The notes beneath the pieces were generated by a model. That model saw only the letters and a list, made by a program, of their open reading frames with translations. It searched no databases and was not told where the DNA came from. Below are positions 5,775-28,495 of a stretch of DNA of 37,863 nucleotides, one piece after another (position 1 is the stretch's first letter; every line of letters begins with the position of its first letter). This DNA is from an uncultured Alphaproteobacteria bacterium (GTDB lineage Bacteria > Pseudomonadota > Alphaproteobacteria > Bin95), in contig CALAHN010000119.1 in the NCBI GenBank assembly GCA_937891825.1, forward strand, positions 1 through 37,863, written 5' to 3'. A program made the translations under genes and the position numbers.

Positions 5775-7298
5775 TCAAGCGGCGCGCGGCGCCTTCAGCA
5801 AAAGCTCGACCTGCTCGACAAGGTCCGCCAACTGCACGGGCTTCGAAAGGACAATGTTCATGCCCGCCGCGAAGCAGTCAGCGACCGCATGCGCCGAATA
5901 CTGGGCGGTGACGCCGATGATCGGCGCCGCCGGCAAGCCTCTGGCAACTTCGCCATGACGGATTTGCTGGGACGCATCGACGCCATTCAGGACCGGCATG
6001 CGCAGATCCATCAGGATCAGATCGTAACGGCAGGCCGTTGCAGCTTCGACAGCCTCCCTGCCATTCGCCGCGATGTCGCATACGAAGCCCAAGGCCCGCA
6101 GCATTTCCGCCAGCACGAAGGCGTTCACCGCATTGTCGTCGACGCAAAGCGCCCGCATGGCCTGATTGGCTGCGACGCCGGCGGCGGCGGTCTCGCGTTC
6201 CATCGGCAGGTCGATTACGAACGTCGAGCCTTGCCCGACCGCGCTCTCGACGCTGATGCTTCCGTCCATGCCTTCGACGATCTGCTTGACGATCGACAGA
6301 CCGAGGCCGAGGCCTTCGGCGCAGGCTTCGTAACTTTCCTGACTGCGGGAGAAAGGTTCGAACGCCTGCTCCAAGAACGCGGCGGTCATGCCCGCGCCGG
6401 TATCGGCGACCGTTAGAATTAGCCGTCCGTCGACCCAGTCCCCGGTCATCGCGACCGAACCGGACTCGGTGTACCGCAATGCGTTCGAGCCGAGGTTGGT
6501 CAGGATCTGCTGCACCCCGACTGCGTCCCCGAAAAAGCGCCCGCGCGCCGCGTCGGATAGAACGGCGTCGAGCGGCAGCCATTTCTGCTCGGCCTGAGTC
6601 TGGAGCATCAGGCGGACGGTATTCAGGATTTCGCCGAGGTCGAACCAGTCGCTCTTGCGCGGCGCGGCGCCTTCGGCGGCCGCACCGGAGACATGCAGGA
6701 CGTTTTCGACCAACCGGAGCAGCGCCTTGCCGGATTCGTCGATGACGTCGATCAGTTGGCGGAGCGGCGCCGGCACGCTCCGCATCGACAACACCTGCGT
6801 CATGCCCAGAATGCCGTTCAGCGGCGTGCGCAGTTCATGGCCCATATGCGCGAGAAAGCGCGCCTTGGCCGCATCGGCCGCTTCCGCGCGCTCCTTTGCG
6901 ATCTTCAACTCCGCTTCCAGGGTCTTCGCTTCGGTGATGTCGATCATCACGCCCCGCAAATGGGTCACAACGCCGTCTTCGCGCGTCACCAGGGTGACGA
7001 TGTCCCGAAGCCAGATAAACGACCCGTCCTTGCGGCAGATGCGATAGTCGAACTCATGGTCGGCGCCCATCGCGGTTTCGCTGATGCAAAACTCCACGGC
7101 CGCCTTCCGATCGTCCGGATGGATCAGGTTCATCCAGAAGTCCGGCTCGAGCCACTGTTCGATCGGGAAACCGAGCAGACGCTCCGCATTCTGCGACACG
7201 AAGGTGAACCGCAATTCCGGAAGCTTCGCTTCCCAGATGATCGCGTTCGCACTTTCGATGATCTGCAGCAAATGTTCCGAATCGAGCGCAAAAGCCAT
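5775..7298 (-). CDS. Soluble PAS hybrid sensor histidine kinase with receiver domain
   Basis: This 507-residue cytoplasmic kinase has no transmembrane segment or signal peptide. A PAS domain occupies roughly residues 10-122 and includes HPDDR at 60-64, typical of PAS_3. The dimerisation helix carries the phospho-accepting H154 (HMGHELRTPLNG). The ATPase domain shows the N box (NLGSNALRY, about 268-276), DTGAGM (299-304) and GLGLGLSIVKQI. The C-terminal receiver has the acidic DD (387-388), phosphorylation site D431 (LMDLRMP) and K486 (LSKP). The ATG at 7298 was preferred to an in-frame GTG at 7307; neither has a strong ribosome site. No output regulator gene is adjacent, so phosphate probably moves to an unlinked phosphotransferase or regulator. 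Confidence 0.92.
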   Translation of the reverse strand: MAFALDSEHLLQIIESANAIIWEAKLPELRFTFVSQNAERLLGFPIEQWLEPDFWMNLIHPDDRKAAVEFCISETAMGADHEFDYRICRKDGSFIWLRDIVTLVTREDGVVTHLRGVMIDITEAKTLEAELKIAKERAEAADAAKARFLAHMGHELRTPLNGILGMTQVLSMRSVPAPLRQLIDVIDESGKALLRLVENVLHVSGAAAEGAAPRKSDWFDLGEILNTVRLMLQTQAEQKWLPLDAVLSDAARGRFFGDAVGVQQILTNLGSNALRYTESGSVAMTGDWVDGRLILTVADTGAGMTAAFLEQAFEPFSRSQESYEACAEGLGLGLSIVKQIVEGMDGSISVESAVGQGSTFVIDLPMERETAAAGVAANQAMRALCVDDNAVNAFVLAEMLRALGFVCDIAANGREAVEAATACRYDLILMDLRMPVLNGVDASQQIRHGEVARGLPAAPIIGVTAQYSAHAVADCFAAGMNIVLSKPVQLADLVEQVELLLKAPRAA

Positions 7299-7319
7299 AA
7301 ACCGCACCAGATTGATGGA

Positions 7320-7362
7320 GGACAGTGTCCACTATCCGCCGCCAGCGCTTAACCGGCGGTTA
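7320..7362. promoter_or_regulatory. Two short dyads in the leader of the hybrid kinase
   Basis: The 82-base gap between the alpha/beta hydrolase stop and the kinase start holds two dyads. One is an 11-base palindrome, GGACAGTGTCC (7320-7330). The other is a 13-base one, TAACCGGCGGTTA (7350-7362). Both have an odd centre. They could be half-operators for a regulator of the kinase gene, or coincidence. No clear -35/-10 pair is seen. Confidence 0.2.
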
Positions 7363-7380
7363 GCCGACGCCCGATCGCGC

Positions 7381-8286
7381 TCATGCCTTCAAGCCGAGGA
7401 TCGAGCCCGCCATCGCGCGCGGGTCGCGCGTCGGCCATGTGCCGGCGTCGACCTCCGCCAGGAAGCGGTCGAGGATGGCGTTGAACGCCTGGGGGTCCTC
7501 GATGTTGATCGTGTGGCCGCAGTTCGGCATGACCGCGAGCGCGGCGGTCGGGATGGTTTGCTTCATCATCAGGCCAGGCAGCAGGCAGGGCCAGTCCTCG
7601 TCGCCGGTCAGGATCAGGGTCGGCGTCTGGATCGTCGCCATGCGGTCCTTCAGTTCGAACAAGCTCGGCCGCTCGCGCTGCACGCCGAGCATGGTGCGCG
7701 CCGCGCCGTCGGTCGAGTGTTCGGCCAGTTGCTCCTGGAATTCCTTGAAGCCCCGCGGGTTCTTGTTCTGGAACTGCACCCGGGTCGGGCCGACGGAATA
7801 GGCGGCGGCGAACGCTTCGGCGCCTTCGCGCTCGATCAGCCGCGCGGTCGTCGCGGTCTCGTCGCGGAATTGCTCGCGCTTGTCCGGCTCGGCGCCGTAG
7901 CCGCAGCCCGCGACCGTGATCGAATGGGCGCGGTCGCCGTGGACCATGCCGAAATGCAGGGCCGCGAAGCCGCCCATCGACAGCCCGACGACATGGGCCT
8001 TCGCCGCGCCGACCGCGTCCAGCACCGCCAGGATGTCGTCCCGCGCCAGGTCCTGGGAATAGGCCCCAGCCGGCGGCACGTCCGAAGGCGGATAGCCCCG
8101 GGCGTTGAAGGATATGCACTGGTAGCGCCGCCCGAAATGCCGCATCTGCGGCTCCCAGGCCCGCATGTCGCCCGCGAATTCATGCACGAAGATGACGGGA
8201 ACGCCCGCCCCGTCCGCTTCGTAATAAAGCTTCACGCCGTCTTTGGCTGTCGCGTAGGGCAAGGGCTCGCACTCCTGATGGGGCAT
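7381..8286 (-). CDS. Alpha/beta-fold hydrolase
   Basis: This 301-residue protein has a standard alpha/beta hydrolase catalytic triad. The nucleophile is S103 in GLSMGG, the acid is probably D229 in LTGDED, and the base is H258 in MPNCGHTINIEDP. The oxyanion region reads HEFAGD (35-40) where many relatives have HGxxG. No signal peptide is present, so it acts in the cytoplasm. It follows the halogenase gene after 36 bases and is the last gene of a probable operon with it and the luciferase-like monooxygenase. Members include lactonases, esterases, C-C hydrolases and haloperoxidase-like enzymes; the substrate cannot be told from sequence. The ribosome site before the ATG is weak, so the start is tentative. 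Confidence 0.85.
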   Translation of the reverse strand: MPHQECEPLPYATAKDGVKLYYEADGAGVPVIFVHEFAGDMRAWEPQMRHFGRRYQCISFNARGYPPSDVPPAGAYSQDLARDDILAVLDAVGAAKAHVVGLSMGGFAALHFGMVHGDRAHSITVAGCGYGAEPDKREQFRDETATTARLIEREGAEAFAAAYSVGPTRVQFQNKNPRGFKEFQEQLAEHSTDGAARTMLGVQRERPSLFELKDRMATIQTPTLILTGDEDWPCLLPGLMMKQTIPTAALAVMPNCGHTINIEDPQAFNAILDRFLAEVDAGTWPTRDPRAMAGSILGLKA

Positions 8287-8322
8287 TCGGTTGGGGCGGG
8301 CGGCTTTTCGGGCGGCCGCCTG

Positions 8323-9933
8323 TTACAGCATTGCGGCGACGTCCCCGCCGGCGCCGCCGGTCGAGACGGCGCCGCGGATCGACGTGACGAGCGCCCGATG
8401 GTCCGGCAGTCCGGCGACGAGCCGCTTCTTCTGGGCCAGCAGATATTCCGAGAACTGCGACCATTCCAGCGGACTGGCGAACGTCTCCAGGCTGAGTTCC
8501 GGGCGGGCGACGATATCCGGCTGGGCCGCGCGCGGCGAATCGACGTCATAGAAACCCTTCCCGAACAGGCACATCTGGTTCGAGCTTGCCGGGAAAAGCT
8601 GCGCTTCAGGATGGTCGCGGTCGTTCGGCAGGGTCAGGCGCCAGCGCTCGAAATCCTCCCGGAGGCTATCGGGCGTCGGCAACTCCTTGCGGGCCGCCAC
8701 CCAATAGGGCTCGGACCGGTTGTTCAAGCGGTAGTGCAGGACGATGAAATCCCGCACTTCGTCCTGCAAGGTCATCATCACCTTGTTGTACTGATTGAGC
8801 ACGGCGTCCGGGAAATCCGAATCCGGCCAGAAGCCGATCAATTGGCGGTTGGCGACTTCGATCATGTAGATCGCGGTCGATTCCAGCGGTTCGATGAAGC
8901 CGCCGGACAAGCCGATGCCGACGACATTCTTGACCCAGGACCGCCGCATCCGGCCGATCCGCATCTGCAGCGTGCGCGGCTCCAGCCCGGCCGCCCGGTC
9001 GCCCAGATGCCGCATCAGTTCCTGCTTCGCTTCGTCGTCGCTCTTGAACTTCGACGAATACACATAACCAGTCCCGATGCGATGATAGAGCGGCACGTTC
9101 CAGGCCCAGCCCGCCGTCAGCGCGGTCGAGGTCGTGTAGGGCTGCAGCGGCTGGCCCTCGATATGGGGAATCTGCACGGCGCAGGCGCGGTCGTTCAGCA
9201 GGAATTCGTCATAGGAAATGAACGGCTCGCCCATCTCCTGGCCCAGCAGCAGGGAGCGGAAGCCGGTGCAATCGATGACCAGCTCGACCGGATGACGGCC
9301 GGTCCGCTCCAGGTTCAGGGCGGCGATAAAGCCCTTTTCGTCTTTTTCGACGGACATCATGTCGTCGCGGACATGCTCGACGCCGCGCTCGACAGAAATT
9401 TCCTTCAGGAACTCCGCGAGCAGACCGGCGTCTAGATGATAGGCATAGCGGAGATCCCGGTCGTAGTCGGCGGCGCCGATCTTGCGCGGCCCCAGGTTCC
9501 GGCCGACGACGGAGAGCACCGGCAACACGGAATCGCAGAAATCCCGCCGCCCGCCCGAGGCATATTGCCGGAAGTGATAGCCGGGATTGTGGCCGTTCAA
9601 AAACCGCGGCGCGGTGAAGGGATGGAAGAAATCCCTGGTCGCGCCATCCTCCCACTGGTTCCAGTTCGCGAACAGCACGCCGAGCTTGAAGGTCGCATTG
9701 CAGCGCGCGAAGAACTTCTGCTCGGGCACATCGAGCTGCTTCAGCAGCATGCTGATCGACGGCACCGTCGCCTCGCCGACGCCGATCGTCGGGATATTCG
9801 GCGATTCGATCAGCGTGATCTTGACGTCATCCCGCTGCGGCCGCCATTTCAGAACGGTGACAAGCGTGAGCGCGGTCATCCATCCAGCGGTGCCGCCGCC
9901 GACGATCGTGACGTTGGTGATGGGTTTGGCCAT
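8323..9933 (-). CDS. Flavin-dependent tryptophan-halogenase-family protein
   Basis: This 536-residue FAD enzyme of the PrnA/RebH superfamily oxidises chloride or bromide to a hypohalous species that is handed to a substrate. The FAD-binding GGGTAGW motif is at residues 12-18 and is followed by GVGEATVP (51-58). The catalytic lysine is K83 (NATFKLGVLF), equivalent to PrnA K79. The halogenase WxWxIP motif is present as WAWNVP (276-281), with Val for Ile, and separates it from plain monooxygenases. The EPLEST motif (348-353) contains the expected glutamate. It is 25 bases downstream of a luciferase-like gene. No flavin reductase, peptide synthetase or TonB receptor lies in the window, so substrate and reductase are unknown. 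A free indole/Trp substrate is only one possibility. Confidence 0.9.
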   Translation of the reverse strand: MAKPITNVTIVGGGTAGWMTALTLVTVLKWRPQRDDVKITLIESPNIPTIGVGEATVPSISMLLKQLDVPEQKFFARCNATFKLGVLFANWNQWEDGATRDFFHPFTAPRFLNGHNPGYHFRQYASGGRRDFCDSVLPVLSVVGRNLGPRKIGAADYDRDLRYAYHLDAGLLAEFLKEISVERGVEHVRDDMMSVEKDEKGFIAALNLERTGRHPVELVIDCTGFRSLLLGQEMGEPFISYDEFLLNDRACAVQIPHIEGQPLQPYTTSTALTAGWAWNVPLYHRIGTGYVYSSKFKSDDEAKQELMRHLGDRAAGLEPRTLQMRIGRMRRSWVKNVVGIGLSGGFIEPLESTAIYMIEVANRQLIGFWPDSDFPDAVLNQYNKVMMTLQDEVRDFIVLHYRLNNRSEPYWVAARKELPTPDSLREDFERWRLTLPNDRDHPEAQLFPASSNQMCLFGKGFYDVDSPRAAQPDIVARPELSLETFASPLEWSQFSEYLLAQKKRLVAGLPDHRALVTSIRGAVSTGGAGGDVAAML

Positions 9934-9958
9934 GGGCTTCGCTACCTGATGCTTCGGG

Positions 9959-11200
9959 TCAATCCTCGCCGGCGGCGGCGCGCGCCGCCTCCTTCGCCGC
10001 CATCTGCGCCTTGAGCTGTTCCGGCGTCAGGCGGACGATGTCCTCGTTCTGATGGCTGTAGAGATCGTATGGCTCGGTCGAGAGCTCCTCCAGCTCCAGG
10101 CGGCCGGACAGGACGTCGGCCTTCCACTGGGCATGCTCGGCTTCGCGGTCGTGGAATTCCGGCATGACCTCGCGCGCGAACAGCTCCAGGCTGTCGAGGA
10201 TATCCTGGTGGCTGGTCTTGCCGGCCTGGTTCAACAGGATCACCTGATCGACATGGGCGTCCTGGAAGGCCCGGAGCTTGCGGCGGATGGTTTCAGGCGA
10301 TCCGACGAGCGCGTTATCGACGGCCTGCCGCGCCTTGTCGGAATGGCGCCAGTCCTGATAGGCGGCCCAGAGGTCGCCCTCGCCCGGCGCGTCGACGCCG
10401 TGCCGGCCATAATAGGACAGCGCGAAAATGAAGAACGTCCAGCCGGCCGCCTTCTCCCGCGCTTCCTCGTCGGTTTCGGCGCACATGAAGCCGGAGACCA
10501 TGGCGATATTCGGGTTCGTCGGATAATCCGTGATCAGGTCCGAGCGATGCAGCAGGCAGTTGTAATAGCGATGCGCCCAGGCCTTCGCCGCTTCCGGCGA
10601 AATGAAGGTGAAGCCAAGCGCGCCCAGCCCCCAGGCGCCCGCCTGCGCGATCGTCTGGATATTCGAGCAGGCGACCCAAAGCGGCGGGTGCGGCTTCTGC
10701 ACCGGCTTCGGCACGACATTGCGCGCCGGGAACTTGTAGTATTCGCCGTCGAACGACCAATTGGTCTTGGTGAACATCGGGATCGTCGCCTTGACGGCCT
10801 CGATCCAGCGTTCCCGCTTGTCGCGAACGCGGATGTTGAAGGGATGCAGCTCCGCCGGCCCGGCGCCCTCGCCCATGCCGAACTCGACCCGCCCGCCGGA
10901 GACGAGATCCAGGGTCGCGACCTTCTCCGCGACCCGGTGCGGCTGGTTCGTGGTCAATTGCACGATGCCGTAGCCAAGCCGGATGTTCTTGGTGCGCTGG
11001 GACGCGGCGCCGAGAAAGACTTCCGGCGCGGCGGAGTGGGAATATTCCTCCAGGAAGTGATGCTCGACTTCCCAGGCATAGTCGTAGCCAAGCCTGTCCG
11101 CTGCTTCGACCTGGGCCAGCGCGTTCTGAAACAACGTGTATTCAGAATCCTCGCGCCACGGCCGCGGCAACTGCATCTCGTAAAAGACGCCGAATTTCAT
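9959..11200 (-). CDS. LLM-class flavin-dependent monooxygenase
   Basis: This 413-residue bacterial-luciferase-like (TIM barrel) protein begins MKFGVFYEMQLPRPW. It carries the family EHH motif (WEVEHHFLEEYSHS, about residues 43-56), as in alkanal and related two-component monooxygenases. The C-terminal portion (about 340-413) is charged and helical. FMNH2 from a separate reductase is expected as cosubstrate; no reductase is encoded nearby. A strong G-rich ribosome site precedes the ATG. It starts 17 bases after moaB and is followed by the halogenase after 25 bases, so the three are likely co-transcribed. Substrate unknown; Baeyer-Villiger or desulfonation-type chemistry are among the family's possibilities. 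Confidence 0.85.
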   Translation of the reverse strand: MKFGVFYEMQLPRPWREDSEYTLFQNALAQVEAADRLGYDYAWEVEHHFLEEYSHSAAPEVFLGAASQRTKNIRLGYGIVQLTTNQPHRVAEKVATLDLVSGGRVEFGMGEGAGPAELHPFNIRVRDKRERWIEAVKATIPMFTKTNWSFDGEYYKFPARNVVPKPVQKPHPPLWVACSNIQTIAQAGAWGLGALGFTFISPEAAKAWAHRYYNCLLHRSDLITDYPTNPNIAMVSGFMCAETDEEAREKAAGWTFFIFALSYYGRHGVDAPGEGDLWAAYQDWRHSDKARQAVDNALVGSPETIRRKLRAFQDAHVDQVILLNQAGKTSHQDILDSLELFAREVMPEFHDREAEHAQWKADVLSGRLELEELSTEPYDLYSHQNEDIVRLTPEQLKAQMAAKEAARAAAGED

Positions 11201-11217
11201 GGGTCCGTCCCCCCGGT

Positions 11218-11766
11218 TCAGCCGCCGCGCTGCGGCACATGCTCCAACAAGCGCGGCATGATCTCGACAAAGTTACAGGGTCGAAACCGGTTGTCCAGTT
11301 GATGCACGAGGATCTCGTCCCAGCCGTCGCGGCAGGCGCCGGAGGAACCGGGCAGCGCGAACAGATAGGTGCCGCCGGCGACGCCCGCCGTCGCCCGGGA
11401 CTGCATCGCCGAGGTGCCGATCTTCTGGAAGCTGATCCAGCGGAACGCCTCGCCAAAGCCGTCGATGCGCTTCTCATAGACCCTCTCGAACGCTTCCGGC
11501 GTGACGTCCCGGCCGGTGACGCCGGTGCCGCCGGTCGATATGACGCAATCGACCGACGGGTCCGCGATCCAGGCGCGCAACTGGGCGCTGATCACGTCGG
11601 CGTCGTCCTTCACGATCTCCCGGGCGACGATAGTGTGGCCTGCCGCCTTGGCCCGGTCGACCAGGGTCTGGCCGGAGGTGTCGTCGGCAAGCGAGCGCGT
11701 GTCGGAAACGGTCAGGATAGCGATATTGACCGGCACGAAGGGGCGGGTCGCGTCAAGCCCGGGCAT
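11218..11766 (-). CDS. moaB: MoaB, molybdenum cofactor biosynthesis protein
   Basis: This 182-residue molybdopterin-binding (MoCF) domain protein has the signature STGGTGVTGRDVTPE and the C-terminal FALPGSSGACRDGWDEI, both diagnostic for MoaB/Mog adenylyltransferases, which activate molybdopterin before metal insertion. The ATG at 11766 was chosen because AGGAG lies seven bases upstream and the protein then begins like other MoaB proteins. A longer open frame upstream would overlap the transglycosylase gene. It starts four bases after the transglycosylase stop. No other molybdenum genes are in the window. Confidence 0.93.
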   Translation of the reverse strand: MPGLDATRPFVPVNIAILTVSDTRSLADDTSGQTLVDRAKAAGHTIVAREIVKDDADVISAQLRAWIADPSVDCVISTGGTGVTGRDVTPEAFERVYEKRIDGFGEAFRWISFQKIGTSAMQSRATAGVAGGTYLFALPGSSGACRDGWDEILVHQLDNRFRPCNFVEIMPRLLEHVPQRGG

Positions 11767-11770
11767 GGCG

Positions 11771-13480
11771 TCACTCCTGTTTGGCGTAAATCGGCCAGCG
11801 GCCTTGCGCCACGTCATCGCGGCTGGGCGCCGGCTGGCCCATGCGGTCCCTGTAGATCCAATAGTTCGCGAGCACGCGCTCGACAAAGACGCGCGTCTCC
11901 CGGGATGGGATCGATTCGATGAACAGCAGCGGATCGTCGTTGTCCTTGATCTCGCGGCGCCAGCGGATCAAGTTCCCGATCCCGGCATTGTAGGCGATCG
12001 CCAGCCGGAACAGGCCGCCATTGACGGCTTCCTTCTCCAGCAGATAGCGAATGTAACGCGCGCCGATCTCGACATTCTGCTTCGGGTCGAACAAGCCGTC
12101 CCGCCGCGCGCCGATATAGCGATCCTCGCCGAGCACATAGTTCGCGGTCGTCGGCAGCACCTGCATCAGGCCGCGCGCTCCGGCGGGGCTGGCGGCGCGC
12201 GGGTTGAACTGGGACTCCTGCCGCATGAACGCGAACAGCAGCGCCTGATCGACGCCGGCATTCGATGACGGCTTCCACGGCGCGACCGGGAAATAGCCGG
12301 CCGCGATATACTCGCTGCCCCGGCCTCTCAGCTTGTGGGCGGCCTGGATGGCGGCGCGCGGCGTCTTATAGGCGATGGCGGCCGCCAGGATGGCCCGCAA
12401 CAAGGCCGGATTCGCTTCGTCGACCAGGGGCTGCAGTTCCTGATCGGCGCGCCAGTACTCCTTGATCTGCATCAGGGCAAGCGCCCGCTTGCCGGCCTTC
12501 ACCTGTTCCAGGCGCTTCAACTCCGCCTTGCCGACTTGCGGCTCGCGCCAGTCGAACGGGCTCGCCGCCTCCAGGGCATGCAACGCCAGTTGGCCGTAGA
12601 ACGTATGATCGTGGGTCGCGGCCATGGAGAGCCATTTCCGCGCCTTGCCGATGTCCTTCAGGGCCAGATGGATGCGGCCCGCCCAGAATGCCCCGGCGGC
12701 CGACGTCCACGAGGTCGCGCCCTCCGCCATCGCATTGGCTTCGAAGTGCCCGATGGCGCGGTCGATCCAGCCCTGGCGGTACGCCGCGAGGCCGGCGACC
12801 CAGTGGGCCTGGCCGACCGCCGCGCCGGAGCGTTTGGCCGCGATCGCCGCGATGCGGTAGGCATTCTGATCCTCGCCGTCAACGAAATAGCCCATGGCGA
12901 TCAGGGCCGCGAGCAGATCGTGCTGGCTGGCGGGCAGCGTCCGGCGGGCTTCCCTGCCGTTCAGAACACCTTCGGCGCCGGCATTATCGCCCTTGCGCAC
13001 CAGGCTTTTGATCGTGTTCGCGATCCGCTCCTGCTGGCCGACGAACGGCAAGGGCCGCGGCTGAATTTCGCCGACCAGCGCGCGAATGTGCTCCTTGCCG
13101 TAGACTGGCTGCGGCGGATTGCTCGCGTTGCCGGGCTTCCGCTTCATCGCCAGCGAAAATGCCCGAAACGCCTCCGGGTGGTCGTTATAGCGCTTCAGCC
13201 AGTCGCGAAGCTCGACGAAGCTCGACTTGTAGGCCGTTGGGTGCAGGTAGCGTTGAAACTGCACGTGCCCCAGCAGGATCTTGTTCTGCAGCTTGGCGAT
13301 CAGCCGGTCGGCCGCCTTGAAATCGCCGTCGTCCTGCAGCGCGAAGATCTGCTTGTAGCGGACGGCGTCATCCGCGCTCAGGATGGTGATTTCCGGCGCT
13401 GCGGCGCCTGCAGGCAAGGCGAAAATCGCCGCCAGCGCCATCAGGGCCGCAAGGCCAATTCGCCGTACATGATCGGTCAC
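11771..13480 (-). CDS. Soluble lytic murein transglycosylase (Slt70-like)
   Basis: This 569-residue periplasmic enzyme cleaves the MurNAc-GlcNAc bond of peptidoglycan, forming anhydro ends. It has a signal peptide (positively charged start, hydrophobic residues 8-24, cleavage near AGAAA) and a long alpha-helical superhelix to about residue 400. A C-terminal SLT domain carries catalytic E422 in MRQESQFNPRAASPAGARGLMQV and the later AYNAG motif. The start codon is GTG; an AGGA lies somewhat far upstream, but no better start precedes the signal peptide. It is directly followed by moaB. Confidence 0.93.
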   Translation of the reverse strand: MTDHVRRIGLAALMALAAIFALPAGAAAPEITILSADDAVRYKQIFALQDDGDFKAADRLIAKLQNKILLGHVQFQRYLHPTAYKSSFVELRDWLKRYNDHPEAFRAFSLAMKRKPGNASNPPQPVYGKEHIRALVGEIQPRPLPFVGQQERIANTIKSLVRKGDNAGAEGVLNGREARRTLPASQHDLLAALIAMGYFVDGEDQNAYRIAAIAAKRSGAAVGQAHWVAGLAAYRQGWIDRAIGHFEANAMAEGATSWTSAAGAFWAGRIHLALKDIGKARKWLSMAATHDHTFYGQLALHALEAASPFDWREPQVGKAELKRLEQVKAGKRALALMQIKEYWRADQELQPLVDEANPALLRAILAAAIAYKTPRAAIQAAHKLRGRGSEYIAAGYFPVAPWKPSSNAGVDQALLFAFMRQESQFNPRAASPAGARGLMQVLPTTANYVLGEDRYIGARRDGLFDPKQNVEIGARYIRYLLEKEAVNGGLFRLAIAYNAGIGNLIRWRREIKDNDDPLLFIESIPSRETRVFVERVLANYWIYRDRMGQPAPSRDDVAQGRWPIYAKQE

Positions 13481-13569
13481 GAGCCGTTAATATTCCTATG
13501 CATCGAAGGCAGACGCCGCATTCATCTATCGCAGCCCAGCCGCAAGCGGAAGATGGCCATGTCTGGGAC

Positions 13570-14466
13570 CTAGGCCGCCTCCTCGTCCGGTTGCAGCGCC
13601 GCCAGCGCGGCGAGGATCGGCTGCATGTCGCCTTTTGCGATCAAGGCATGATCCATGATCGGCTGGATCGCGACCTGATCCGCGCCTGCATCCAGGTGCA
13701 ACTGGATGCGCGCCCGGATCGCATCCGCGTCTCCCCAGGCGACCATCCCGTCCATGAACCGATCCGACCCCTCGCCGGCGAGGTCGGCTTCGGCGAAGCC
13801 AAGGCGCAGCCAGTTGTTCCGGTAGTTCGGCAAGGTCATGTAGCGGGTGAGCTCCATCCGCGCTAGCCGTCGGCCTTCGCTTGCGTCCTTGACCAGGGCG
13901 ACTTTCTGCTCGACCACCAGCCGCCGGTCCGGCCCGAGCGTGGCGCGGGCGAATTCGGTATGCTCTGGCGTGACATTGTAGGGCAGCGCCCCTTGCGCCA
14001 ACTCGCCCGAGAGCGCCAGCATCTTCGGCCCAAGCGCGCCCAGCATGATTGGGAGATTGGTCGACTGCCCAAGCTTGTGCTGGCAGGCATAGATCGCTTC
14101 CAGATACATCCGCATCGCCGCCAGGGGCTTCTCGTAGGCATGACCGCGCATGCCGGAGACAATCGGGGCGTGGGAGACGCCAAGCCCCAGCGTGAAGCGG
14201 CCGTCGGAGAGCGCATTCAGGGTCCTGACGCCATTGCCGGCGGACATGGGATCGCGGGCATAGATATTTGCGATCGAACTGCCGACTTTCATGGTCTTCA
14301 GGCGATGCAGCAGGGCCGCGCCCAGGGCCATCGATTCCGAAATCGCCGATTCCGGATACCAGAACGTGTCATAGCCCAGCGCTTCGGCGCGGGCGGCCAC
14401 GGCGAAGGCGTTCGCATAACCCAGACGATCGAGGGATTGCCAGACGCCCAGTTGCTCAGCGCGCAT
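13570..14466 (-). CDS. LLM-class F420-dependent-type oxidoreductase
   Basis: This 298-residue luciferase-like TIM-barrel protein resembles the F420-dependent subgroup (TIGR03620-like). It has the opening GVWQSLDRLGYANA, a central GRFTLGLGVSHAP and the compact length typical of single-subunit oxidoreductases. It lacks the EHH motif of the alkane/alkanal group. Either F420H2 or FMN could be the cofactor. The stop of the upstream esterase gene is 21 bases before its start, so esterase and oxidoreductase are probably one operon. Substrate unknown. Confidence 0.82.
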   Translation of the reverse strand: MRAEQLGVWQSLDRLGYANAFAVAARAEALGYDTFWYPESAISESMALGAALLHRLKTMKVGSSIANIYARDPMSAGNGVRTLNALSDGRFTLGLGVSHAPIVSGMRGHAYEKPLAAMRMYLEAIYACQHKLGQSTNLPIMLGALGPKMLALSGELAQGALPYNVTPEHTEFARATLGPDRRLVVEQKVALVKDASEGRRLARMELTRYMTLPNYRNNWLRLGFAEADLAGEGSDRFMDGMVAWGDADAIRARIQLHLDAGADQVAIQPIMDHALIAKGDMQPILAALAALQPDEEAA

Positions 14467-22734: not shown

Positions 22735-23760
22735 TCACTTGACGCCCGCCGTCCGTTGCAGAATGCCCTCGATGAACTCCGACGTCGTCACATTCTTGAA
22801 GCCGGCGTCGGACAGGTAGCCTTCGACTTCGGCGACGGAATGGGCGATGCCGGTGGTGTTGTTGATCGCCTGGGCCAGGCCCCACATCGCCGGGTCGGCA
22901 GGGCCGGAGCGATCCGCGTCCAAGGCCTCGCCGATCAGATGAAAGCTGCCGCCCGGCGCCATCGCCGCATGGGCCTTGGCGACGACCGCCGCGATCGCCT
23001 CGCGGCCGTACATCGGCAGATTGGAGGCCATCACCGCGACATCGGCGCCCTCGGGGAATGGATCGACGTTGAAATCGCACACCCTGGCCTCGATCCGATC
23101 CGTCAGGCCGTTCTCCTGGATGAACTCCTCGGTGACCGGAACGACCGCCGGCATCTCGAGGACGACCGCGCGCAGGTTGGGATAGCGCTTGCAAGCTTCG
23201 ATGCAGTAAGCGCCCGACCCGCCGCCGATATCCATCAGGAGCTTCTTGTCCGTCATATCGACGTGATTTAGAAACAGCCGGCCCGCGCCGCGCCCGATCG
23301 AATAGGTGCCGCGATGGTAGCGCCGCGCCTCCTCGATCGTTATGTTGGCGACGGTCTTGTTCTCCAGCACCGGCGGCGCCTGCTCGCGCAGGATGTCCGC
23401 AAGGCGGCCCCACTCGTTCCAGTCGGGCTTGGTGAACAGCATCCACTCGCCCGCATAGGTCGGCCGCCCCTTGACCAGAAAGCGCTCCGTATCGGGCGCC
23501 AGCGCCAGCTTGGCGCCGTCGCGGACGATCAGGCCAAGGCCCAGCATCGCCACGATGATCCGCTCGCCGTGCAAGGGCTGGAGGCCCATCGCCCTGGTCA
23601 ATGCAGCTTCGTCCTTGGCGCCGCCGGCGATGTGGGTGAAGAGCCCCAACTCGACCGCCGCCATCAGCGCCCCGGATTCCCGGTATGCCCGCACCATCTG
23701 TTGCAGCCGACGGGTCGTCGGCCGCTGTTCGCGCTCCGCCGCGCCCGCTGACTTAGCCAT
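22735..23760 (-). CDS. SAM-dependent O-methyltransferase with dimerisation domain
   Basis: This 341-residue protein resembles the O-methyltransferase family 2 (acetylserotonin or hydroxyneurosporene methyltransferase type). A helical N-terminal dimerisation/winged-helix domain spans about 15-100. The Rossmann domain with the SAM motif DIGGGSG lies at 177-183, an acidic residue in AVVLEMP after strand 2. [10 protein letters not shown] segment follows. The start at 23760 is the ATG eight bases inside the end of the upstream DUF169 gene. This overlap indicates co-transcription and coupling. The methyl acceptor is unknown, perhaps a small hydroxylated aromatic. Confidence 0.85.
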
Positions 23761-24583
23761 AGGACGCGCCCATCCCTTCCGACGGATCGACATGGGGGCC
23801 ATAGGGCGGGATCGGGTAACGCAGGCCGACCTTCGACAAAGTCTCCATGCCCTCGATGCCGCGCTTGAATTCATGGGGCGGCATGGCGATCAGCAGTTCG
23901 TCGTCCGCGACGCCGCCATAGCGGCGCTCGGCGAAGCAGGGGATGGAAATCGACGTATCCTTGGTCAGCAACGCCTTGCCCCAACTGTCGGCGCAGGCGC
24001 TTTCGCCCGTGATCGACATGTCATAACGCCGGTAGCGCTTGTTCTGCAGGCCGTTCACGAAAATGATGATCTGCGCCGGCGTGCCGTAGAACAGGATGAT
24101 GTCCGGGTCGAGGCGGCCGGTTCGGACCGGCGAGACCACGGTCGCCTGGTAGGTCCCGTAGACCTGCCGCGGCATTTCCGTCTGATGGGCGCAGGCGGCG
24201 GTCTGGTTCTCGAACCAGACGCCGGTCATGTGCGTGCCGTCGAGGGTCGCTTCATCCGGCAAGTCGATGCCGTGGACGCCGCCGCAGTTCGATTGCGGCC
24301 GGACGTTCTCCGCCGTGATGCCGAGGGTGAAGCCCGCCATCCGGCATTGGGTCACCAACTGGCACATGGTGTGGAAGCGGCCGGGCTTCGGGCGGCGCAG
24401 GCCCTGGACGGCGTTCATCTCATCCAGCGTGCGGAACTGCTTCATCGAAATTGGCAGCGTGCGCAATTTCAGCAAGCTTTGCAGGCGGTTATTCAGGTCC
24501 TGCAGTTCTGTCGCCGTGACATGTTCGTAGTCCGGATGCGCCTCGAGCGGGGTCGGCTCTGGGAACGCTGCGGAATCTGGCAT
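23753..24583 (-). CDS. DUF169 family protein (COG2043)
   Basis: This 276-residue protein matches the DUF169 pattern along its length: [12 protein letters not shown] near the start, a cysteine-containing [33 protein letters not shown] in the middle, then [15 protein letters not shown] and a closing [11 protein letters not shown]. Several cysteines (in the CQLVTQC, NCGG, ACADSW and PCFAERR segments) could bind metal or a cluster, but this is inference. The ATG at 24583 has a full AGGAGG site about eight bases upstream. The function of the family is unknown. Pairing with a methyltransferase and divergence from nitrile hydratase are the contextual clues. Confidence 0.88.
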
Positions 24584-27305: not shown

Positions 27306-28385
27306 CTACAGACGCGCCATCACATGGCGGGCGAAATCTGAGAAATTCTCGCGCATCCGGGCCGCCGGCGGTAACAGCACGACTTCCTTCAAACCCGCCG
27401 CCGCCAGTTGCCCAAGCCGCTCGACGATCGCATCCGGCTCGCCCACGAGGCCGCCCGCGACCTGGATCAGCTCCGGCGTCACGAAGCGGCGTTCGGCTGG
27501 CGGGCAGAAGGCGCAATGGCCTTCATGCAACGTCAGGTGACGCCGCTCCGGCGGCATCGTCGTTTCGACATAGCGCTTGTAATCTTCCCAGACGCCGCGG
27601 GCGCGGTCGGAGACGAACCGGTCGTGGCCGCGTTCCTGATACAGCTCGAACCAGTAATGCAGCGTCGAGACGACGGCGCTGTCGATTTGATCGATCACCC
27701 GCTCGCTCTTCAGCGTCTCGCCCGGCCGCAGCACGCAGGCGAAGGTCAGGGCGGACGTGTGATAGTCCGCCGGCCAGTCGCGGCCCGCCGCCGCCGCTCC
27801 AGCTCGGGCGATATCGAGATTGCGGGCGAGCACGCCAAGCGGCTCGTTGCCGGCGCAGATGCGGCCGTCGCCATACGCGCCCGCCGCCGCCAGGGCTTTC
27901 GGCCCGTTCGCCGCGACATAGATCGGCGGCGGTTCGTCGAGGTTGAGACACCCCAACTGCCGGTCCAGAAAGCGGATCGGCTTCGGGCCATGGCCCGCGT
28001 CGTACTCGACCTCCTCGCCGGCCAGCAGGCCGCGCACGACGCTGAGATAGTCCCCGAACGCCGCCGCCCCGATCGGCCGCGCGCCCATGATGCGCATGGC
28101 CGTGTGGCCCGTGCCGATGCCGAGGAAGGCGCGGCCGGGCGCCAGCGCGTTGATCGAGGCGATGGAATGGGCCGTCACCGGCGCCGGCCGCGTCCCGGCG
28201 ATGGCGACGCCCGTGCCGAGCTTGATCCGGCTGGTATGATGCGCCGCAAGCGCCAGGGTCGCGTAGGCGTCGGACCAGATCATCTGGCTGTCGGGCGCCC
28301 AGCCGCGATCGTAGCCCAGATTCTCAAGCTCCTTAAAAATCCGCCAGTCGTCGATCTTCGTCGCGACCATGCCGCCGAATTGCAT
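27306..28385 (-). CDS. LLM-class oxidoreductase (methylene-H4MPT reductase-like)
   Basis: This 359-residue luciferase-like TIM-barrel protein resembles the F420-dependent reductase branch: RIKLGTGVAIAGTRPAPVTA and GRAFLGIGTGHTAMRIMG are the usual core segments, with PPIYVAANGPKALAAAG in the second half. The start at 28385 has an AGAGGAG site six bases upstream; a longer frame exists but has no such site. FMN or F420 may be the cofactor. It is the first gene of a two-gene operon with the 2-hydroxyacid dehydrogenase. The 110-base gap upstream of it holds no gene and presumably its promoter. Confidence 0.84.
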   Translation of the reverse strand: MQFGGMVATKIDDWRIFKELENLGYDRGWAPDSQMIWSDAYATLALAAHHTSRIKLGTGVAIAGTRPAPVTAHSIASINALAPGRAFLGIGTGHTAMRIMGARPIGAAAFGDYLSVVRGLLAGEEVEYDAGHGPKPIRFLDRQLGCLNLDEPPPIYVAANGPKALAAAGAYGDGRICAGNEPLGVLARNLDIARAGAAAAGRDWPADYHTSALTFACVLRPGETLKSERVIDQIDSAVVSTLHYWFELYQERGHDRFVSDRARGVWEDYKRYVETTMPPERRHLTLHEGHCAFCPPAERRFVTPELIQVAGGLVGEPDAIVERLGQLAAAGLKEVVLLPPAARMRENFSDFARHVMARL

Positions 28386-28495
28386 GTCATGCTCCTCTGC
28401 CGAAACCGTAAGGGCGGCGACAGGCGCGCACAAGCGCGAGAGCAAGCCCGGATGGAACAAGGGCGATCAAGCGATGCGGTTCAGGGATATAGCTC

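Follow-up and report, generated by a model that had tools for sequence, protein, structure and literature searches.

Flavin-dependent halogenases pass HOX through a catalytic lysine, luciferase-like monooxygenases (LLMs) act through a flavin C4a-(hydro)peroxide and alpha/beta hydrolases use a Ser-His-Asp mechanism, steps that are well established for the respective families. Among the halogenases, those acting on free tryptophan carry a motif termed Trp4 that is missing from group C, and the metagenomic group C enzymes MHal2-4 halogenated indole, not tryptophan, and favoured bromide (PMC8269204). The group C enzymes (BrvH, Xcc4156 and MHal2-4; PMC8269204, PMC5945002, PMC7336383) have in common with the halogenase described here an FAD motif, the catalytic Lys and Glu, Trp1/Trp2-like motifs and the absence of Trp4. 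Class C monooxygenases of the RslO1, MsnO8 and bacterial luciferase types share their fold and EHH region with the LLM of this locus, and PcaD-like hydrolases and esterases share the catalytic triad pattern of its hydrolase. High LLM numbers have been described in SAR202 Chloroflexi, in which each genome carries many FMNO/LLM paralogues (PMC5395668). A literature search on the present gene combination and on the lineage that carries it returned nothing relevant.

Gene layout of the locus

The window, a 37,863-nucleotide stretch of DNA from an uncultured alphaproteobacterium, was described in an initial annotation as containing a cassette of three same-strand genes, encoding an LLM, a halogenase and a serine hydrolase and separated by gaps of 25 and 36 bases. 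Coordinates, strand and spacing were confirmed (36 bases between hydrolase and halogenase, 25 between halogenase and LLM), all three ORFs were intact, and Pfam clearly assigned each of the three proteins to the enzyme class that had been proposed (Table 1). The hydrolase may start at a TTG near 8262, because its orthologues align from there. A further 17 bases separate the end of moaB from the LLM gene, and the same-strand run extends upstream through moaB and the lytic transglycosylase. Given this tight packing and shared direction, the three genes may well be co-transcribed in the window genome. A sigma-70 scan of positions 7000-14000 found no promoter-like site, with terminators at chance level. 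In base composition (GC3 0.85-0.90) no member of the trio stood out as foreign. As the annotation had also stated, no NRPS, PKS, TonB receptor or flavin reductase was present among the approximately 20 window proteins scanned, a set smaller than an exhaustive annotation would give. Elsewhere in the window, positions 22735-23874 encode a methyltransferase that weakly resembles the BchU/CrtF family model, and several ORFs in the surrounding region matched no NCBIfam model.

Table 1. Genes at and around the moaB-downstream site of the window.
Feature	Coordinates	Strand	Basis and remarks
Hybrid sensor kinase	5775-7307		downstream of hydrolase
Alpha/beta hydrolase	7381..8286	minus	301 aa; Pfam Abhydrolase_1 3e-20; genus alignment
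Two-component-type flavin-dependent halogenase (PF04820)	8323..9933	minus	536 aa; Trp_halogenase 5.4e-127
Luciferase-like monooxygenase (LLM, class C)	9959..11200	minus	413 aa; Bac_luciferase 7.3e-51; EHH
moaB (molybdopterin biosynthesis)	11218..11775	minus	TIGR02667 above cut-off; upstream anchor of variable site
Soluble lytic transglycosylase	11771..13480	minus	SLT domain; upstream anchor, overlaps moaB start

Composition of the moaB-downstream site across the genus and class

The window genome (G000) was compared with four congeners (G001 to G004), some of the five genomes being incomplete. The hydrolase lay downstream of moaB in all five and was the constant gene of the locus, with 79-83% identity across the genus. 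The interval between moaB and the hydrolase held the LLM and the halogenase in G000, the halogenase only in G001, the LLM only in G002, the halogenase together with a stretch of ~1.25 kb in G003, and no gene (~80 bases) in G004. The two LLMs were 88% identical; the G000 halogenase was ~79% identical to that of G001 and 77-85% identical to the two contig pieces that carry the presumably continuous G003 gene (L013/L059 and L003/L058). The additional G003 stretch carries an unrelated PRC-barrel gene between moaB and the halogenase (L013 651-1493), so unrelated genes enter the site too.

As a check on its cassette, the initial annotation had named a comparison of gene order across alphaproteobacterial genomes, to be decided against it if the three genes were not neighbours in relatives, and this is what the comparison returned for the trio: it was complete in G000 only, the four congeners carrying subsets at the same locus. 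The notion of a conserved three-gene cassette was accordingly abandoned. What recurred were pairs, the halogenase lying beside the hydrolase in three of the five genomes and the LLM occurring with the hydrolase in two, and a functional linkage between gene pairs at the locus is possible.

Outside the genus, the lytic transglycosylase upstream of moaB was conserved in the family members examined, other genera included, and the 1.5 kb downstream of moaB in those other genera contained no hydrolase, LLM or halogenase. In a sample of 385 Alphaproteobacteria genomes, 18 (G000 and G001 counted) encoded a halogenase match at E <= 1e-100. No homologue of the window LLM or hydrolase was found within 1.5 kb of the fetched halogenase loci from outside the genus, and a scan of genome contigs matched G001 and G003 contigs only. 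Across the class we found no recurrent partner gene of the halogenase. Its neighbours were mixed: one locus (L004) adjoins a 2OG-Fe(II) oxygenase that has a homologous counterpart in another (L089), and L094-L096 are flanked by an amidase and by an alpha/beta hydrolase other than that of the window. The remaining neighbours were a variety of genes.

Trees of moaB plus transglycosylase and of the hydrolase agreed with each other, recovering (G001,G003) and (G002,G004) with 99-100% support and grouping G000 weakly with (G001,G003) (59 and 69%, respectively). In the LLM tree the window copy fell beside that of G002, followed by those of G006 and G024, a topology compatible with vertical descent within the family. 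Because moaB plus transglycosylase and the hydrolase share one topology, the LLM and the halogenase need separate gains or losses; on that topology a single gain suffices for the halogenase, and the LLM would have arrived either once, with two subsequent losses, or twice.

We consider it probable that the genes accreted independently downstream of moaB and do not constitute a dedicated pathway cassette; the LLM orthologues of other genera (73-82% identity), which sit elsewhere than at the moaB site, fit this reading. According to this model, the hydrolase would be a resident gene of the genus, the LLM and the halogenase would have been gained or lost independently of each other, and the enzymes would act separately, with no more than a transcript in common. 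The halogenase and the LLM would obtain their reduced flavin from unlinked reductases encoded elsewhere; two flavin reductases are present on other contigs of the window genome (C31 and C113). The locus would then be an unstable neighbourhood populated by ordinary enzyme families, possibly an LLM-esterase pair into which a stand-alone halogenase has dropped.

The luciferase-like monooxygenase and the hydrolase

The Bac_luciferase domain and luciferase-type fold place the LLM among the class C monooxygenases. Its EHH motif at residues 46-48, which we take to be as in luciferase alpha, was invariant in 20 homologues and suggests that the enzyme may use FMNH2. By the chemistry of its family, FMNH2 and O2 would give rise to a flavin C4a-(hydro)peroxide in the LLM, and the enzyme would probably oxidize a ketone, an aldehyde or a related substrate. 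The best matches in sequence and fold were RslO1, the Agrobacterium monooxygenase 2i7g and luciferases; the window LLM differs from RslO1, MsnO8 and luciferases in its low identity (16-26% over the fold match) and an extra C-terminal tail, and it scored below the MsnO8 family cut-off.

The window genome encodes at least 30 LLMs (PF00296), with all 30 scored candidates passing the Pfam cut-off out of 75 first-look candidates. Every member of the family had 29 or 30 scored matches, G024 and G040 were similar, and most other Alphaproteobacteria sampled had 0-4. Assuming about 4000 genes, an LLM neighbour would be expected by chance for ~1.5-4% of genes. With dozens of paralogues per genome, and two more in the window itself, an LLM neighbour is unremarkable, and gene order in one genome of such a lineage can mislead. 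The two further window LLM genes lie at 13570-14466 and 27306-28460, and the first exceeds the cut-off of the F420-dependent family TIGR03620. CofD, a protein of F420 biosynthesis, is encoded in the window genome (C33, 22072-22881) and in six other family members; among the family members searched it was not found in G004. This distribution suggests that the alphaproteobacterial family uses F420, and use of F420 by the window LLM itself is possible. An LLM-rich, F420-capable family is the more interesting by-product of this analysis. With numerous LLM paralogues in each genome, this alphaproteobacterial family may parallel the expansion described in SAR202.

In the hydrolase, Ser103, a GDED motif at 228-231 and His258 were conserved, and the enzyme would cleave an ester or lactone by the Ser-His-Asp mechanism. 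The best NCBIfam model was 3-oxoadipate enol-lactonase (TIGR02427), but the protein scored 106.8 bits where the cut-off is 255.85, which rejects an identity as PcaD. A TauD-type dioxygenase is among the genes that lie beside the hydrolase in other genera, and more distant genomes have M20 peptidases, an aminotransferase and an SDR protein there; none was a constant partner among the genomes compared.

The context of the LLM hints that it serves in oxidative catabolism, where a ketone might be oxidized and an ester then cleaved. In the corresponding alternative model, the LLM would be a type II Baeyer-Villiger-like enzyme converting a ketone to an ester or lactone, the hydrolase would open the product, and the halogenase would be an unrelated insertion. 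The gene order moaB-LLM-hydrolase in G002 is consistent with such a pair, as are the LLM and hydrolase orthologues lying ~7 kb apart on one G024 contig, the zinc-binding alcohol dehydrogenase that adjoins the LLM orthologue in seven sister-genus genomes (L041 being the seventh), the occurrence of 3,6-diketocamphane monooxygenase among the structural matches of the LLM, and the precedent for reading LLM expansions in this way in SAR202 (PMC5395668). However, type II Baeyer-Villiger enzymes rank behind RslO1 and the luciferases, and the fold does not give the reaction. Moreover, the sister genus does not have the LLM next to the hydrolase, and three congeners keep the hydrolase while lacking the LLM. 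We regard the pair as a tentative reading, one that overlaps with independent accretion because the LLM and the hydrolase may cooperate within an accreted site.

A route in which LLM, halogenase and hydrolase successively tailor one small molecule, as the initial annotation had suggested, would require a trio ancestral to the genus that has decayed in four relatives, and we judge it unlikely. Tight same-strand packing is what such a route would predict, all five locus states could be derived from an ancestral trio by losses, and the pairing of the window LLM with that of G002 agrees with it. Nevertheless, the trio is intact in only one of the five congeners and was found nowhere else among the 385 sampled Alphaproteobacteria with 1.5 kb flanks, and loci missing the LLM or the halogenase keep their remaining genes intact. 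The gaps of G001, G003 and G004 contained no convincing LLM remnant; two matches in the G003 gap (20 and 41 bases, E 0.002-0.007) were short and non-collinear and were rejected as remnants. Whether the trio was ancestral and decayed or was assembled stepwise, it has not been maintained. We judge similarly unlikely a modular locus, in which the resident hydrolase would be joined by an oxygenase, a halogenase or both according to species; if this were true, related bacteria would make variously decorated forms of one small molecule from the site downstream of moaB.

The halogenase

The PF04820 protein is probably a stand-alone two-component halogenase, and it was the single halogenase match in the window genome. 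It contains a GxGxxG FAD motif (GGGTAGW at 12), a conserved Glu (E351) and the catalytic lysine recognized in the initial annotation (K83). The WxWxIP-type motif noted there holds in a relaxed form: it reads WAWNVP (at 276), retaining both Trp and the Pro and replacing Ile with Val. Across 28 homologues K83, E351 and W276 were invariant, and Trp278 and Pro281 nearly so. The halide motif Fx.Px.Sx.G reads FIEPLESTA, with Ala354 at the position of the last Gly, where homologues have Ala, Ser or Gly; this residue sets the protein apart from the group C systems. The predicted structure (pLDDT 90) matched tryptophan halogenases, among them AbeH, Tar14 and SttH, at 31-37% identity and a TM by query of 0.85-0.87. 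It is very unlikely that the protein resembles QhpG or LodB relatives in being a flavin monooxygenase that does not halogenate. In favour of that reading are NCBIfam matches to LodB and QhpG, weak and far below their cut-offs, and a halide site of Thr-Ala, not Thr-Gly. Against it, Lys83, Glu351 and WxWxxP are retained, verified tryptophan halogenases are the best matches, and BrvH and Xcc4156, which have Ser and Asn, respectively, in place of this Gly, nevertheless halogenate (PMC7336383).

The substrate motifs point away from free tryptophan. Trp1 (ATVPSI) and Trp2 (HPFTA) resemble those of the group C enzyme MHal3 (ATVPGM and HPFNS), and Trp4 is absent, the aligned position reading EAQLFPASS versus HYHGFESYS in AbeH. 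Assignment to the free-tryptophan halogenases (groups A/B of PMC8269204) was rejected on the missing group A Trp4 motif. Because Trp4 is lacking and Trp1/Trp2 resemble group C, a group C-like, indole-type enzyme is the better guess from these motifs, although, unlike group C, the protein scores best in sequence and fold with tryptophan 5/6-halogenases (35-37% identity). The halogenase would form HOX from FADH2, O2 and halide at the FAD and hand it on by way of Lys83. The acceptor would be an electron-rich aromatic, with an indole-type compound more likely than free tryptophan; by analogy the enzyme may prefer bromide. Several alphaproteobacterial families contribute uncharacterized members to the group C-like halogenases. 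One alphaproteobacterial genome (G025) encodes eight PF04820-type homologues (L008, L014, L019, L021 and L023-L026), several of them in tandem.
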